NCBI GenBank assembly: GCA_037783545.1
Contig: JBBELK010000447.1
Span: 30,812 to 94,811, forward strand
Length of the DNA stretch: 64,000 nucleotides
Direction: 5' to 3'
DNA from: Henricia sp. BOLD:AAB3569
Taxonomy: Eukaryota > Echinodermata > Asteroidea > Spinulosida > Echinasteridae
In this document: positions 34,031-47,282 of the stretch, in pieces
Position numbering within the stretch: position 1 is the stretch's first letter
Layout: the number at the start of each line of letters is the position of its first letter
Notes under the pieces: generated by a model
Told to the model about the DNA's origin: nothing
The model's database searches: none
The model's input: the letters and a program-made list of their open reading frames with translations, nothing else
Made by a program: the position numbers and the translations under genes

Positions 34031-34088
34031 CTAAAAAGGTCCTCCATTGACCCTTGTAAGGCACTTGGTGGCGCTATTTTTTTAAAAG

Positions 34089-34172
34089 ATGGCCGCGCTT
34101 AGAGTTTCGCCTTTTTTACAAGATTTTGATCATTTTAATGTTAGTTGTCTCCATGTTGTTAAGAATGGCTAG
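34089..34172 (+). other. Upstream ORF overlapping the RMDN start
   Basis: An ATG in AAAAGATGGCC context opens a 27-codon frame (MAALRVSPFLQDFDHF...) that stops at 34172. It overlaps by 8 nt the preferred main start at 34165, in a different frame. If the transcript starts upstream of 34089, such an overlapping uORF would be expected to reduce main-ORF translation or force leaky scanning. Transcription start is unknown. Confidence 0.4.
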
Positions 34173-34484
34173 AAACCTTCATTTTAAAGAAATTTTACCT
34201 GCTCTTGGTGTTGGTATTGTGATCGGGGCGGGTGCCGTATTGTCCAATCGGTTACCATGGTTACGCTCGCAGTCAGATTTACCATGTTTACGGTCGAAAT
34301 TGGACAAATTGACCATGTTGACGGAGTCGATTGCTAGTTTGCAGAGGGAATGGCGGGAATTTCGGCAGACGTTTTCTGCGCAGACGAGTGGATCCGGCAT
34401 CAGAAAGACTAACTCAGGATTCATCTCGATTCATGCGAGCAGCGGTGATGATGATGATGACTTCTTCGAAGAGGCTTATGAAGG
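34165..34484 (+). CDS. RMDN3-like: RMDN3-like protein, coding exon 1
   Basis: First coding exon of a regulator of microtubule dynamics (FAM82/RMDN) protein. In vertebrates RMDN3/PTPIP51 is an outer-mitochondrial-membrane tether that binds ER VAP proteins. The start at 34165 (AAGAATGGC) has A at -3 and G at +4; an in-frame ATG also exists at 34138. Residues 10-26 (ILPALGVGIVIGAGAVL) form a membrane anchor. Residues 42-70 look like a short coiled coil. SGFISIHASSG (84-94) resembles the YFTASSG neighbourhood of PTPIP51, followed by DDDDDFFEEAYE (95-106), an acidic FFAT-like patch. The donor is uncertain. GAAGG|GTTAGC at 34484 gives the phase needed by exon 2 but is weak; GAGCAG|GTTACC at 34497 is out of phase. 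A transposon boundary lies at 34485-34506. Confidence 0.75.
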
Positions 34485-34667
34485 GTTAGCTGAGCAGGTT
34501 ACCATGGTTACCTCAGCTCTGACTTTATCGTGTGGTTTTCTGTATTAGAGCTGAGGATACTTACCAACATGAACATGATATCTCAAAACATTGAAATCAA
34601 AATGTGTAACTTTCTCCCAGTCATCATGGTCATGTCAGTGACACACTAATTCCCCCTGGGACTCACC

Positions 34668-40806: not shown

Positions 40807-41528
40807 GCGAGTAGAGCGATTTGCATATTCATCAACAAAATAATCATGTCAATATATGATGTCACATAGTATATGATGTCGCCATTTAATTTGCATATTG
40901 TTTTTTCCCTTAGTTGTTTGTAAACTCAAAGAGTAAGCATTCAGTAATCAGCTTGCATATATGGGCTGTAATAAATAATCCTAGACCCCGTTCTCACGAG
41001 AGAAATCACTTCGACGAAGAGATTTCCTGATTTCCAACTTTTTAGACCACCCCCCTGTACGCAACATTTGTCACCCATATAACAGTACGTTGGGTGGTAC
41101 GCATTGGCTCTCAATGCCCCTCCCCCGTCATGCGTACGTACTCTATATGGACAGCCCCACATCTCTACATTCGACGAAGAGTAGAGTCGCTTCACTCGAT
41201 GAAGCAAATAGCTTGATTCTACAAAGAGATTTGACACGTAAAGAGATGGGGCACCGCACAGCTTCATTGGATCTTTGTTAGCGGTTGCCTAATGTGAACA
41301 GAATCACTCTTTATTAATTCTTCGTTCAATCGTTTTTTAATTATATGTGAATGAACACTTCATTAATGATGATTAACTAATCTTCGTTAAACGAAGCAAT
41401 TTTTCTAGTAAGAACGGGGTCCTAGTCATGTCAGTAGCAGAAGACTTTTTCTTAAGAATTTTGTAGGCTCAGGAATGTCATACATCACCAACATTAAAGT
41501 CAACATTGTTTCATTGTTTCATGCGTAG
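40807..41528. other. Intron 2 (GC-AG type)
   Basis: Begins GCGAGT and ends ATGCGTAG. It contains inverted words CTAGACCCCGTTCTCAC / AAGAACGGGGTCCTAG (40980 and 41411) that outline a small MITE of about 440 bp with GAGATTTC/TTCGACGAAGAG words. No other feature. Confidence 0.5.
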
Positions 41529-41640
41529 TGCTCGGACAATGTGCACTTTATGTGGAGACTGGCAAAAGCACACCTACTTGCTTCAGATGTGGCTACCAAA
41601 AAGGGAGATGATGTACGGAAAAAAAGGCTGATATTTGATG
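41529..41640 (+). CDS. RMDN3-like: RMDN3-like protein, coding exon 3
   Basis: 112 nt encoding residues 166-202 plus the first base of 203. HFMWRLAKAHLLASD matches the RMDN hallmark FLWRLARAYSDM; the exon continues with KKGDDVRKKRLIFDG, the charged linker of the family. Donor TTTGATG|GTAAGA. The intron starts directly with the first unit of a 69-bp satellite that itself reproduces this donor context. Phase 1 agrees with exon 4. Confidence 0.9.
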
Positions 41641-44600
41641 GTAAGAGTGCTGGCTAAAAGCAGTATCATGAATGATTCAAGAATATCACTTCGCTTGAGA
41701 GTTGAGATGGTAAGAGTGCTGCCTAACAGCAGTATCATGAATGATTCAAGAAGATCACTTTGCATGAGAGTTGAGATGGTAAGAGTGCTGCCTAACAGCA
41801 GTATCATGAATGATTCAAGAAGATCACTTTGCATGAGAGTTGAGATGGTAAGAGTGCTGCCTAAAAGCAGTATCATGAATGATTCAAGAAGATCACTTTG
41901 CATGAGAGTTGAGATGGTAAGAGTGCTGCCTAACAGCAGTATCATAAATGATTCAAGGAGATCACTTTGCATGAGAGTTGAGATGGTAAGAGTGCTGCCT
42001 AACAGCAGTATATCATGAATGATTCAAGAAGATCACTTTGCATGAGAGTTGAGATGGTAAGAGTGCTGCCTAACAGCAGTATCATGAATGATTCAAGAAG
42101 ATCACTTTGCATGAGAGTTGAGATGGTAAGAGTGCTGCCTAAAAGCAGCATCATGAATGATTCAAGAAGATCACTTTGCATGAGAGTTGAGATGGTAAGA
42201 GTGCTGCCTAACAGCAGTATCATGAGTGATTCAAGAAGATCACTTTGCATGAGAGTTGAGATGGTAAGAGTGCTGCCTAACAGCAGTATCATGAATGATT
42301 CAAGAAGATCACTTTGCATGAGAGTTGAGATGGTAAGAGTGCTGCCTAACAGCAGTATCATGAATGATTCAAGTAGATCACTTTGCATGAGAGTTGAGAT
42401 GGTAAGAGTGCTGCCTAAAAGCAGTATCATGAATGATTCATAAGAAGATCACTTTGCATGAGAGTTGAGATGGTAATTAAAGAGTGCTGCCTAACAGCAG
42501 TATCATAAATGATTCAAGGAGATCACTTTGCATGAGAGTTGAGATGGTAAGAGTGCTGCCTAACAGCAGTATATCATGAATGATTCAAGAAGATCACTTT
42601 GCATGAGAGTTGAGATGGTAAGAGTGCTGCCTAACAGCAGTATCATGAATGATTCAAGAAGATCACTTTGCATGAGAGTTGAGATGGTAAGAGTGCTGCC
42701 TAAAAGCAGTATCATGAATGATTCAAGAAGATCACTTTGCATGAGAGTTGAGATGGTAATAGTGCTGCCTAAAAGCAGTATCATGAATGATTCAAGACGA
42801 TCACTTTGCATGAGAGTTGAGATGGTAAGAGTGCTGCCTAACAGCAGTATCATGAATGATTCAAGAAGATCACTTTGCATGAGAGTTGAGATGGTAATAG
42901 TGCTGCCTAAAAGCAGTATCATGAATGATTCAAGAAGATCACTTTGCATGAGAGTTGAGATGGTAAGAGTGCTGCCTAACAGCAGTATCATGAATGATTC
43001 AAGAAGATCACTTTGCATGAGAGTTGAGATGGTAAGAGTGCTGCCTAAAAGCAGTATCATGAATGATTCAAGAAGATCACTTTGCATGAGAGTTGAGATG
43101 GTAATAGTGCTGCCTAAAAGCAGTATCATGAATGATTCAAGAAGATCACTTTGCATGAGAGTTGAGATGGTAATAGTGCTGCCTAAAAGCAGTATCATGA
43201 ATGATTCAAGAAGATCACTTTGCATGAGAGTTGAGATGGTAATAGTGCTGCCTAAAAGCAGTATCATGAATGATTCAAGAAGATCACTTTGCATGAGAGT
43301 TGAGATGGTAAGAGTGCTGCCTAACAGCAGTATCATGAATGATTCAAGAAGATCACTTTGCATGAGAGTTGAGATGGTAAGAGTGCTACCTAAAAGCAGC
43401 ATCATGAATGATTCAAGAAGATCACTTTGCATGAGAGTTGAGATGGTAAGAGTGCTGCCTAACAGCAGTATCATGAATGATTTAAGAAGATCACTTTGCA
43501 TGAGAGTTGAGATGGTAAGAGTGCTACCTAACAGCAGTATCATGAGTGATTCAAGAATATCACTTTGCATGAGAGTTGAGATGGTAAGAGTGCTGCCTAA
43601 AAGCAGTATCATGAATGATTCAAGAAGATCACTTTGCATGAGAGTTGAGATGGTAAGAGTGCTGCCTAAAAGCAGTATCATGAATGATTCAAGAAGATCA
43701 CTTTGCATGAGAGTTGAGATGGTAAGAGTGCTGCCTAACAGCAGTATCATGAATGATTCAAGAAGATCACTTTGCATGAGAGTTGAGATGGTAAGAGTGC
43801 TGCCTAAAAGCAGTATCATGAATGATTCAAGAAGATCACTTTGCATGAGAGTTGAGATGGTAATAGTGCTGCCTAAAAGCAGTATCATGAATGATTCAAG
43901 AAGATCACTTTGCATGAGAGTTGAGATGGTAATAGTGCTGCCTAAAAGCAGTATCATGAATGATTCAAGAAGATCACTTTGCATGAGAGTTGAGATGGTA
44001 ATAGTGCTGCCTAAAAGCAGTATCATGAATGATTCAAGAAGATCACTTTGCATGAGAGTTGAGATGGTAAGAGTGCTGCCTAACAGCAGTATCATGAATG
44101 ATTCAAGAAGATCACTTTGCATGAGAGTTGAGATGGTAAGAGTGCTACCTAAAAGCAGCATCATGAATGATTCAAGAAGATCACTTTGCATGAGAGTTGA
44201 GATGGTAAGAGTGCTGCCTAACAGCAGTATCATGAATGATTCAAGAAGATCACTTTGCATGAGAGTTGAGATGGTAAGAGTGCTACCTAACAGCAGTATC
44301 ATGAGTGATTCAAGAAGATCACTTTGCATGAGAGTTGAGATGGTAAGAGTGCTGCCTAAAAGCAGTATCATGAATGATTCAAGAAGATCACTTTGCATGA
44401 GAGTTGAGATGGTAAGAGTGCTACCTAACAGCAGTATCATGAGTGATTCAAGAAGATCACTTTGCATGAGAGTTGAGATGGTAAGAGTGCTGCCTAACAG
44501 CAGTATCATGAATGATTCAAGTAGATCACTTTGCATGAGAGTTGAGATGGTAAGAGTGCTGCCTAAAAGCAGTATCATGAATGATTCAAGAAGATCACTT

Positions 44601-45265
44601 TGCATGAGAGTTGAGATGGTAAGAGTGCTACCTAACAGCAGTATCATGAGTGATTCAAGAAGATCACTTTGCATGAGAGTTGAGATGGTAAGAGTGCTGC
44701 CTAACAGCAGTATCATGAGTGATTCAAGAAGATCACTTTGCATGAGAGTTGAGATGGTAAGAGTGCTGCCTAACAGCAGTATCATGAATGATTCAAGAAG
44801 ATCACTTTGCATGAGAGTTGAGATGGTAAGAGTGCTGCCTAAAAGCAGCATCATGAGTGATTCAAGAAGATCACTTTGCATGAGAGTTGAGATGGTAAGA
44901 GTGCTGCCTAACAGCAGTATCATAAATGATTCAAGAAGATCACTTTGCATGAGAGTTGAGATGGTAAGAGTACTGCCAAACAGCAGTATCATGAATGATT
45001 CAAGAAGATCACTTTGCATGAGAGTTGAGATGGTAAGAGTGCTGCCAAACAGCAGTATCATGAATGATTCAAGTAGATCACTTTGCATGAGAGTTGAGAT
45101 GGTAAGAGTGCTGCCTAAAAGCAGCATCATGAATGATTCAAGAAGATCACTTTGCATGAGAGTTGAGATGGTAATAAGAGTGCTGCCAAACAGCAGTATC
45201 ATGAATGATTCAAGAGGATCACTTTGCATGAGAGTTGAGACGGTAAGAGTGCTGCCTAAATGTGC
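41641..45265. repeat. 69-bp satellite, about 53 units, seeded at the exon-3 donor
   Basis: Tandem array of 52 full units and one partial. Each unit starts GTAAGAGTGCTGCCTAACAG and ends GAGAGTTGAGATG, so every unit border reads GAGATG|GTAAGA, the same as the true donor GATG|GTAAGA. By inspection about 43 starts are GTAAGA; the rest are GTAATA or GTAATT. Variants (AACAGC/AAAAGC, AATGAT/AGTGAT, CTGCCT/CTACCT) define unit types. Because 69 is divisible by three and the unit lacks stops in one frame of each strand, 908-codon open frames arise on both strands; I do not consider them genes. Confidence 0.95.
42963..44480. repeat. Higher-order duplication of 11 satellite units (759 bp)
   Basis: The order of unit variants at 42963-43721 (including three consecutive GTAATAG units, the CTACCTAAAAGCAGCATC unit and the following AGTGAT unit) is repeated at 43722-44480. 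The diagnostic CTACCTAAAAGCAGC occurs at 43385 and 44144, exactly 759 bp apart. A second, shorter block duplication is visible between about 41917 and 42474 (units with ATCATAAATG followed by AGTATATCATG). Confidence 0.8.
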
Positions 45266-45690
45266 TGCCACAATGTGGCTTGGCAATCAGTGTGCTGAAT
45301 GATTAGCTGCCGGACTCATCATTTAGAGGTTATGGGTTCGAGCTCTATTGTGATCAACGTGCCTTTGTCCCTAGAGAGACGCTTCATATGCCTCGGTAAC
45401 CCAAGAAGCGAAATTTTGGGAGCTTTTAGGGGGTATGCCACAATCTAATGTAACTGTTGATAGGGTTGTGCGCCTTGGCCAGGCTGCTAATGAAGCAAAA
45501 TGGTTCTGTTGATTCCCTGATGGCAGCAGTAATAATGCCAACAGTGCCAGGAGTACCTTCCTACATGTACATGTACATGTACAATGTAGGTAGTTTGTGC
45601 TACAGTAAACTCTCATTATAGCACTCTTTAAGGGACCAAACTAATGTGTACTTGTCTCGTATTCAGAAAGCAAACCAATGCATATTTCTA
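45266..45690. repeat. SINE-like fragment at the satellite border
   Basis: GAGGTTATGGGTTCGAGCTC (about 45327-45346) resembles a tRNA T-arm and box B. The following GTTGTGCGCCTTGGCC and CCCTGATGGCAGCAGTAATA (45460-45540) recur inverted at about 55370-55450. This marks a dispersed SINE-like repeat. Confidence 0.5.
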
Positions 45691-46740
45691 AGTGGCTGTG
45701 GTTGGTCAGAAAACAGCGTTTTTACCATAAGATCGTGCATTTTATAGAAATAATTGCGCGCAAGAAAACAAATTGCACTTTTGACAGAATGTTCACTTTT
45801 ACATACAGGAATAATAATTAATTATTATTTTGTTTGTTATTAACTTCATTTAAGTATATATAGCCCAGTGAAAAGAATAAGTGACGTTTAAGTGCTTATC
45901 TGTAAGAACCACTTAATAATGAGTTGGTCCGCCGTCTTTTCAAATCACCCTAACGCATCTTTGCGCATTTTGTTTATCAAATTTTAAATGAGCTGCTGAT
46001 TTAAGTTCGCCTAAAATGCACTGCAAATTCAGCAAACAGGTGTTTTCACATGCAGGTGTTTTCAAACGGGTGTTTTCCCTCGTAAGTTGAGCACTAGTTT
46101 TAATTTGTTTGCACTTTGCACTTTGCACTTTGCATTATTGTTTTCATATGCATGTTGACGAGGTGTTGCAACCACATGTGTAACTGTATCCAGCGGCCAT
46201 TCGAGATGAAATCATCTTTATACTGTAGATGAAAATGCAATACCTCACCGTGCACAAGTCACCACCCAATCTCTGGAAGACAACAGGATTGAGCGGATGG
46301 AATGACCAGCTAGATCTTCCGACTGCAATCCTACAGATCCTCAAGCGGACAACCAATAAGAAAGTGAATGACCACCTTTTTTCAGTATTTGTAGCACATT
46401 GCACTGAGCCTGGGCCATCTTAAATCAGCAGCGCTTTCAAAATGCACTAAACAGTATGCGGAAGTGTCCTGAAGTGGTTTCAAAAGACGACAATATGCTC
46501 TTATTTTTTAAACAGTTTCTGGAGATAATCACAAACGTTGCTCACTCTTTTTACCGGGCTACCTAAATAAAGTTAAGACAATGAGGAAGAATACCCCAAA
46601 ACAATGAATACTTTTATTCCTGTATGTAAAAGTGAACATTCTGAAAAAGTGCAATTTTTGTTCTTGCACACGTACGGTTTCATAAAATGCATGATTTTAT
46701 AGTGAAAACGCTGTCTGTTGACCGACAACAACCACTCATT
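45691..46740. mobile_element. 1-kb inverted-repeat element in intron 3
   Basis: AGTGGCTGTGGTTGGTCAG near 45692 is mirrored approximately near 46720-46738. The arms continue through ATGCATTTTATRRAA and TGTTCACTTTTACATACAGG (45789; mirrored CCTGTATGTAAAAGTGAACA at 46619). The interior includes a 64-codon plus-strand open frame (46229-46423) of no recognised family. Exact ends uncertain. Confidence 0.6.
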
Positions 46741-46897
46741 GTGTGTGAATGAAAATGACTCCAATGGCTATAGGGATTCATGGTTTAACTTGACTTGGGA
46801 CTCGAAGGCAGTTCGACTTGACTTGCGACTCGAGCAGAGGGAGTCTTGTTACAACCCTGTAATAAGTAGTCCTTGTTATAACTCTTGTTTACTACAG

Positions 46898-47034
46898 GCA
46901 AGGACTATGCATTCACAGCTATCTCCATAGATGAAGACAGCGCTGATGCTCATAAATGGTTTAGTCTCCTCATCGGCTTAGCGACAGATTATGTTTCTAA
47001 CCAGGAGAAGCTCAAGCTAGGATATGCATTCAAG
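46898..47034 (+). CDS. RMDN3-like: RMDN3-like protein, coding exon 4
   Basis: Acceptor TTTACTACAG|GCAAGG; 137 nt encoding residues 203-248. DYAFTAISIDEDSADAHKWF aligns with the RMDN signature ...ALEKGDESADCHLWYAVL, followed by NQEKLKLGYAFK, matching the ...RIQSGFSFK end of that helix pair. Donor AAG|GTGAGA, phase 0. The last 93 nt of this exon and the first 28 nt of the intron are tandemly triplicated immediately downstream. Confidence 0.9.
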
Positions 47035-47282
47035 GTGAGAGCTGCTTAGCGTTTATTACAGTGCTGATGCTCATAAATGGTTTAGTCGCCTCATCGGCTT
47101 AGCAACAGATTATGTTTCTAATCAGGAGAAGCTCAAGCTAGGATACACATTCAAGGTGAGAGCTGCTTAGCGTTTATTACGGTGCTGATGCTCATAAATG
47201 GATTAGTCTCCTGATCGGCTTAGCAACAGATTATGTTTCTAATCAGGAGAAGCTCAAGCTAGGATATATATTCAAGGTAGGT
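46942..47282 (+). repeat. Tandem triplication of exon-4 end and donor (121-bp unit)
   Basis: GCTGATGCTCATAAATGG starts at 46942, 47063 and 47184, a period of exactly 121 bp. Each unit has 93 nt of exon 4 and 28 nt of intron (GTGAGAGCTGCTTAGCG...). Copy 2 is preceded by TTATTACAG, an acceptor-like AG, and followed by GTGAGA. It could be used as a 94-nt exon (47062-47155), which would place TGA as its second codon. Copy 3 has ACGG instead of ACAG and the donor GTAGGT. Reading through copy 1 also meets TAG after GTGAGAGCTGCT. Confidence 0.9.

Follow-up and report, generated by a model that had tools for sequence, protein, structure and literature searches.

The opening part of intron 3 in the gene studied here is a tandem array of about 3.6 kb in which a 5′ splice site recurs with every unit. 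The locus raises the question of how the donor of a single exon came to be multiplied in this way, and whether the additional copies have any effect. The window (the whole stretch of DNA that was analysed, 64 kb) was searched for exons, and their boundaries were assigned by our own reading of open frames and splice signals. The translation of the joined plus-strand exons matched RMDN3 (PDB 7cc7, which we take to be the human protein) with an E-value of 1.7e-41, and the Pfam family RMD1-3 matched the protein from exon 3 onward (E = 7.2e-39). Judged by this predicted protein, the host gene is RMDN3/PTPIP51-like. The features needed below, in window coordinates, are as follows.

41529..41640, plus strand: exon 3, 112 nt, ending ...TTT GAT G (open frame CSDNVHFMWRLAKAHLLASDVATKKGDDVRKKRLIFDG; homology to RMDN3, 7cc7)
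41641..41646, plus strand: GTAAGA, likely genuine 5′ splice site for exon 3, heading unit 1 (by homology)
41637..45259, plus strand: 69-bp minisatellite of 53 donor-headed units, mostly GATG|GTAAGA (Tandem Repeats Finder and splitting at the donor)
41655..41657, plus strand: TAA, the first in-frame stop after exon 3, at intron +15
41641..46897, plus strand: intron 3, 5257 bp (of which about 1.6 kb is not array)
46898..47034, plus strand: exon 4, 137 nt (GKDYAFTAISIDEDSADAHKW...GYAFK; homology to 7cc7)

At the junction of exons 3 and 4, the alignment to 7cc7 has no gap (FDG-KDY versus LDG-KEE), and the codon of the shared glycine is split G|GC across it. Because the alignment is gap-free at this point, 41640|41641 is supported as the true boundary and is likely to be the genuine exon 3 donor, in agreement with the first-pass annotation, which had ended exon 3 at 41640. 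Searching the 740.7-Mb assembly with the exon 3/4 pair gave 5 matches, strong only at this locus, the fifth (E = 3.96) lying elsewhere; no second RMDN copy or other allele was found in the assembly. Further upstream, intron 2 (40807-41528) seems to begin with GC (ACAG|GCGAGT), with the protein alignment gap-free across the junction. A candidate exon 1 (34060-34530) would encode a hydrophobic N-terminus and an acidic stretch, DDDDDFFEEAYE, which we take to recall an FFAT motif.

Tandem Repeats Finder placed the array at 41637-45259 with a period of 69, 52.3 copies, 96% matches and a score of 6630. Splitting at the donor gave 53 unit heads, reading GTAAGA in 43 cases, GTAATA in 9 and GTAATT in 1, and the bases 5′ of the heads were GATG in 52 and GACG in the remaining one. 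The earlier estimates of about 53 donor copies in a 69-bp array, about 43 of them GTAAGA, were thus borne out. Both edges had to be moved. The first unit had been said to start on intron base 1, whereas the lag-69 identity is unbroken from 41637 to 41649 (in the stretch displayed) and lost at 41636, which puts the start of the repeat on the four final exon 3 bases, GATG; the array end, given before as 45265, lies near 45259 according to Tandem Repeats Finder.

Unit lengths were 69 bp (47 units), 71 bp (3), 72 bp (1) and 74 bp (1), with the last unit incomplete. Counting the latter, 22 distinct unit sequences are present, and the two commonest types (12 and 8 copies) are one C/A site apart. Aligned units differ on average at 2.8 positions (52 units, gaps counted), and unit 1 shows 5 differences from the consensus. 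The region 42000-45000 of the array is also strongly strand-biased, with a GC skew of about +0.3 on the sense strand.

The explanation that we favour, with a probability of about 0.74, is a minisatellite that arose by tandem duplication over the exon-intron boundary and has been tolerated, its donor copies having no selected function. The array would probably be a variable number tandem repeat (VNTR). A segment reaching from four bases inside exon 3 to about 65 bases into intron 3 would have been duplicated in tandem, and the array then enlarged and reshuffled by slippage and unequal exchange, the donor in every copy being inherited by descent. It would be tolerated because the first copy always keeps exon 3 and its donor intact. 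The first donor would be used nearly always, with occasional slips by one or a few units, and mRNAs made from later donors would probably be destroyed, a stop lying 15 bases into the intron. We infer all four elements of this account, namely the duplication origin, the use of the first donor, the decay of mis-spliced mRNA and neutrality.

Several observations bear on this origin. In the order of unit variants, the block LLLBM occurs twice at a distance of 11 units, and a lag of 11 is also the commonest among identical unit pairs (10/41; lags 1-25), which points to unequal exchange. An array starting at random in the non-array part of intron 3 (about 1.6 kb) would have its edge within 5 bases of the donor in about 0.7% of cases (11/1638, a post hoc figure); the position of the array is therefore probably no accident. 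The exon part shared by the units amounts to four bases, and the array may instead have originated immediately within the intron and met GATG by chance. A 301-base query over the first units gave 21 matches in the genome (740.7 Mb), all at this array, and a 30-base core allowing up to 3 mismatches gave 49, again all in this array, against 0 for the reversed control; both searches may miss diverged or very common sequence. That the unit was found at no other locus is as expected if the array grew from the donor. The earlier proposal of such growth stands in so far as the array starts at the likely donor, its units hold GATG and the donor, and the unit was found only here; the duplication itself is the part that we infer.

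Donor-anchored arrays of this kind are already known in human genes, and the statement that no system like it had been described is refuted by ABCA7, IFI6 and CBS. In the RMDN array, the first unit holds the donor of the exon (edge at 41637, donor at 41641 by homology) and the donor-like sequence is repeated in 53 heads, 43 of which are calculated to pair with U1 at least as well as the true donor. When introns are gained through tandem duplication, the duplication event reportedly multiplies splice signals; a new intron is made in that case, whereas in RMDN the donor of an old intron would have been multiplied. For IFI6 (6-16, G1P3), a minisatellite with multiple splice donors is said to have been described by Turri in 1995. 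According to the accessible part of PMC4526556, two downstream repeat units of IFI6 serve as donors. The repeat units are alternative donors there, as they could be in RMDN, but their use gives isoforms, whereas the downstream donors of RMDN would bring a stop. For human CBS, the available text of PMC2630376 names a polymorphic 31-bp VNTR, c.1444_1467+7, of 16-21 copies, which the accessible part of PMC1395315 tabulates as exon 13-intron 13. By this name, the unit spans the boundary of exon 13 and intron 13 and hence carries the donor, with 24 exon bases per unit (our reading of the name) as against 4 in the RMDN array.

The likeness extends to ABCA7. As described in the accessible sections of PMC5954066, intron 18 of the human gene has a 25-bp VNTR (23.7 copies in the reference sequence), and exon 18 uses the first GT of this array as its donor; the donor one unit downstream is used in about 2% of cases, retaining one unit and shifting the frame. 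In both genes, an intronic array lies directly at the exon, with the canonical donor in its first unit. The differences are that ABCA7 has a 25-bp unit, known length alleles and a disease link, whereas the RMDN array has a 69-bp unit and 53 copies, and that the retained unit causes a frameshift in ABCA7 but in RMDN is a multiple of three with an immediate stop. A VNTR that goes with donor choice and does not carry donors itself is found in the accessible part of PMC6692358. Nothing closer than ABCA7, IFI6 and CBS was found in the accessible text of the open papers, PMC9909926 included. The RMDN array enlarges the small group of donor-anchored VNTRs described in human genes by a large example from another animal genome, and offers a natural test of splicing choice among about 43 equal donors some 69 bases apart.

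By analogy to ABCA7, the length of the array might modulate splicing, and since exon 4 has 137 nt, its skipping would cause a frameshift and reduce the output of RMDN. We regard this as possible but unlikely. The layout is that of ABCA7, in which the next exon, exon 19, is skipped more often as VNTR alleles lengthen (up to 9.7 kb), and 3.6 kb falls within the ABCA7 allele lengths of 315 to 9711 bp (PMC5954066, accessible part). However, the share of the downstream-unit donor in ABCA7 is constant with VNTR length (same source and part), so the length effect there does not act through decoy donor use.

Much less probable than this is the arrival of a satellite beside exon 3, the first unit of which replaced an old donor. 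In favour of it, arrays holding GGTAAG are not rare in this genome and several belong to dispersed families, as seen in a survey of 33 places (17 + 16 loci). These were drawn from the first-listed matches of two genome pattern scans, leaving out some listed places beside or repeating others (e.g. C54:369521 and C64:3518059). Tandem Repeats Finder detected an array with at least two GGTAAG in 30 of the 33, the exceptions being L053, L055 and L091, and the arrays included shared families (L049/L090/L094, L084/L089, L092/L093/L095 and L050/L052). Considering first rows of the output, GGTAAG lay 0-6 bases from the left edge in 6/30 (L037, L044, L049, L084, L089 and L090), with units of about 19-40 bp, in which chance makes an edge position likely; further edge cases would come from minor rows of L080 and L087. 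In the 63-bp family, L093 and L095 start on GTAAGG, without the first G. A donor-like word inside an array unit is common in this genome, and one at the edge of an array is not in itself unusual.

The scans themselves gave 1343+2485 matches versus 1183+1046 for the control, and 1284+2393 versus 399+598, but these counts include overlapping matches within single arrays many times and no enrichment was drawn from them. With three copies of AGGTAAGT required as a stricter pattern, the matches numbered 6+10 versus 6+3 for the control. As a separate observation, three apparently dispersed element families (L084, L089, L049, L090, L094, L092, L093 and L095) carry internal GGTAAG minisatellites with units of about 40, 31 and 63 bp.

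Against an arrival, a dispersed satellite has its unit at several loci, whereas the 69-bp unit was found at this locus only, and exon 3 ends where the RMDN3 alignment is gap-free. No other stretch of the window qualified as the origin of the unit, the matches being of just 10-11 bases (E = 1.6 or worse), and the stretch between the array end and about 45306 showed no other match at E = 0.001. Two dispersed repeats follow.

45309..45570, plus strand: dispersed repeat shortly right of the array, SINE-like by eye (genome copies of about 75-86% identity)
45690..46755, plus strand: dispersed fold-back repeat in the remainder of intron 3 (copies elsewhere and an inverted self-match)

A further alternative, to which we give marginally less credence than to the arrival of a satellite, is that the decoys are functional, recruiting many U1 particles and thereby shielding the intron from premature polyadenylation or timing its splicing. 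Pairing was calculated as an RNA duplex with the 5′ end of U1. Heads equal to or slightly better than the true donor numbered 43/53 (-8.0 or -8.2 kcal/mol), and the other 10 paired more weakly (-5.1 kcal/mol). In the 60.4 kb outside the array, the value of the true donor is reached at 39 GT sites of the plus strand, so that U1-type sites have a density of about 11.9 per kb in the array versus 0.65 for that strand elsewhere in the window, a difference of about 18-fold; 49 sites of this strength lie on the minus strand of the window as a whole. This density is what a telescripting role would call on. On the other side, the poly(A) signals of intron 3 are a single AATAAA at 46566, lying 1.3 kb past the right edge of the array, and a single ATTAAA within the array at 42476.

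Conservation of the donor columns gave a mixed picture. Across the 47 full-length units, letters other than the consensus occur 8 times in the ten donor columns (0.8 per column), compared with 0.95 per column for the other 59, and 42/69 ten-column windows vary as little or less. Counted by copies, conservation of the donor columns does not exceed that of the remaining columns, with no clear sign of selection. The +5 G is lost in 10/53 copies, and the less well pairing form with T at +5 has multiplied in its turn. If each kind of change is scored once instead, 1/10 donor columns is variable (one change) versus 14/59 others (15 changes), and 19/69 windows show as few kinds, which is a weak lean towards constraint on the donor. 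The suggestion that decoys influence U1 recruitment, intron retention or polyadenylation thus found no support, since donor columns are unexceptional, 10/53 have lost the +5 G and poly(A) signals are few.

For the repeated donors, no function is shown and neutrality fits best, as the duplication reading has it; weak constraint on the donor columns, counter to full neutrality, may nevertheless act. The exon 3 frame meets TAA at intron +15, so any donor of units 2-53, if used, would give an early stop, and decoy use should be unproductive. When donors are of equal strength, splicing can favour the one closest to the acceptor; the array would in that case be harmful, not neutral. No stable RNA structure was found around the donors, since 151/200 shuffled versions of 41560-41850 folded as well as the native sequence (z = 0.74). 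A coding repeat of 23 amino acids was rejected. In its favour, 69 is divisible by three and an open frame of 912 codons exists, but the opposite strand is likewise open (908 codons), the exon 3 frame hits a stop, the 71- and 74-bp units break the frame, and no Pfam match was obtained at E = 0.1.

The most interesting part is the recurrence of donor-spanning arrays in the same genome, of which three more were recognised over likely real donors.

46937..47278, plus strand: 121-bp × 2.8 tandem repeat covering the 3′ part of RMDN exon 4 and its donor (Tandem Repeats Finder)
G000:C23:5589357-5592512, minus strand: L068, 75-bp array at the end of a PH-domain exon in a DOCK9-like gene (homology across the junction)
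G000:C23:5591354-5594445, minus strand: L030, 43-bp × 13 array (11 GGTAAG) at the end of a putative upstream DOCK exon (exon order and strand)

The exon 4 repeat has three donors, at 47035, 47156 and 47277. Its copies 2 and 3 resemble unused pseudo-exons, being out of frame or having a stop.

L068 has 22 GGTAAG donors spaced 75 bp apart (73 bp in the last two gaps), each unit consisting of about 60 exon bases, the donor and a little intron. The exons flanking the junction, when joined, match the PH domain of DOCK9 (PDB 1wg7; E = 1.1e-10) in an alignment that spans the junction and has a one-residue gap two residues before it. With Pfam, PH scored 17.2 bits on the two exons (E = 0.0077, below the cut-off) and 38 bits (2.5e-9, above it) when part of a further exon was added. 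About 1 kb upstream of L068, the L030 array starts inside an exon and ends in a donor. This exon, of 27 residues, scored 17.7 bits against the DOCK N-terminal family, below the cut-off, and 16.2 bits in a genome-wide profile search, at positions 65-93 of the profile. Two exons on the same strand precede it, at profile positions 2-41 (above the cut-off) and 36-66 (below), so that order and strand support the putative L030 exon more than its score does. From sequence, both L068 and L030 look like real exon ends. In all four arrays (RMDN exons 3 and 4, L068 and L030), a stop in the exon frame occurs within 17 bases after the first donor.

A tentative and rather doubtful generalisation is that exon ends serve as cradles of minisatellites in this lineage, donor-spanning duplications being self-healing through an intact first copy and mRNA decay. 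If true, it predicts arrays over donors and few over acceptors. A genome of this size has in the order of 200,000 donors, so a few overlaps between arrays and donors are expected by chance, and four donor-spanning arrays from few inspected places do not prove an excess. Taken with the RMDN array, the others raise the question of whether donor-spanning tandem duplications are favoured or merely spared by selection.

Open frames were read at 6 of the 33 surveyed places; L068 and L030 were exon-like, L037 and L044 gave nothing clear, and L057 and L054 are unproven. At L057 (G000:C23:5543783-5546948, minus strand), on the strand of the DOCK gene, an 80-bp × 6 array may span an exon end (CTTAG|ATTGCG...CTATAG|GTAAGT). 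L054 (G000:C9:2021177-2024342, minus strand) comprises eleven units of roughly 80-115 bp, each with TTTTACTGCAG, about 13 bases and GTAAGCAG, which looks like an acceptor, a micro-exon and a donor repeated together.
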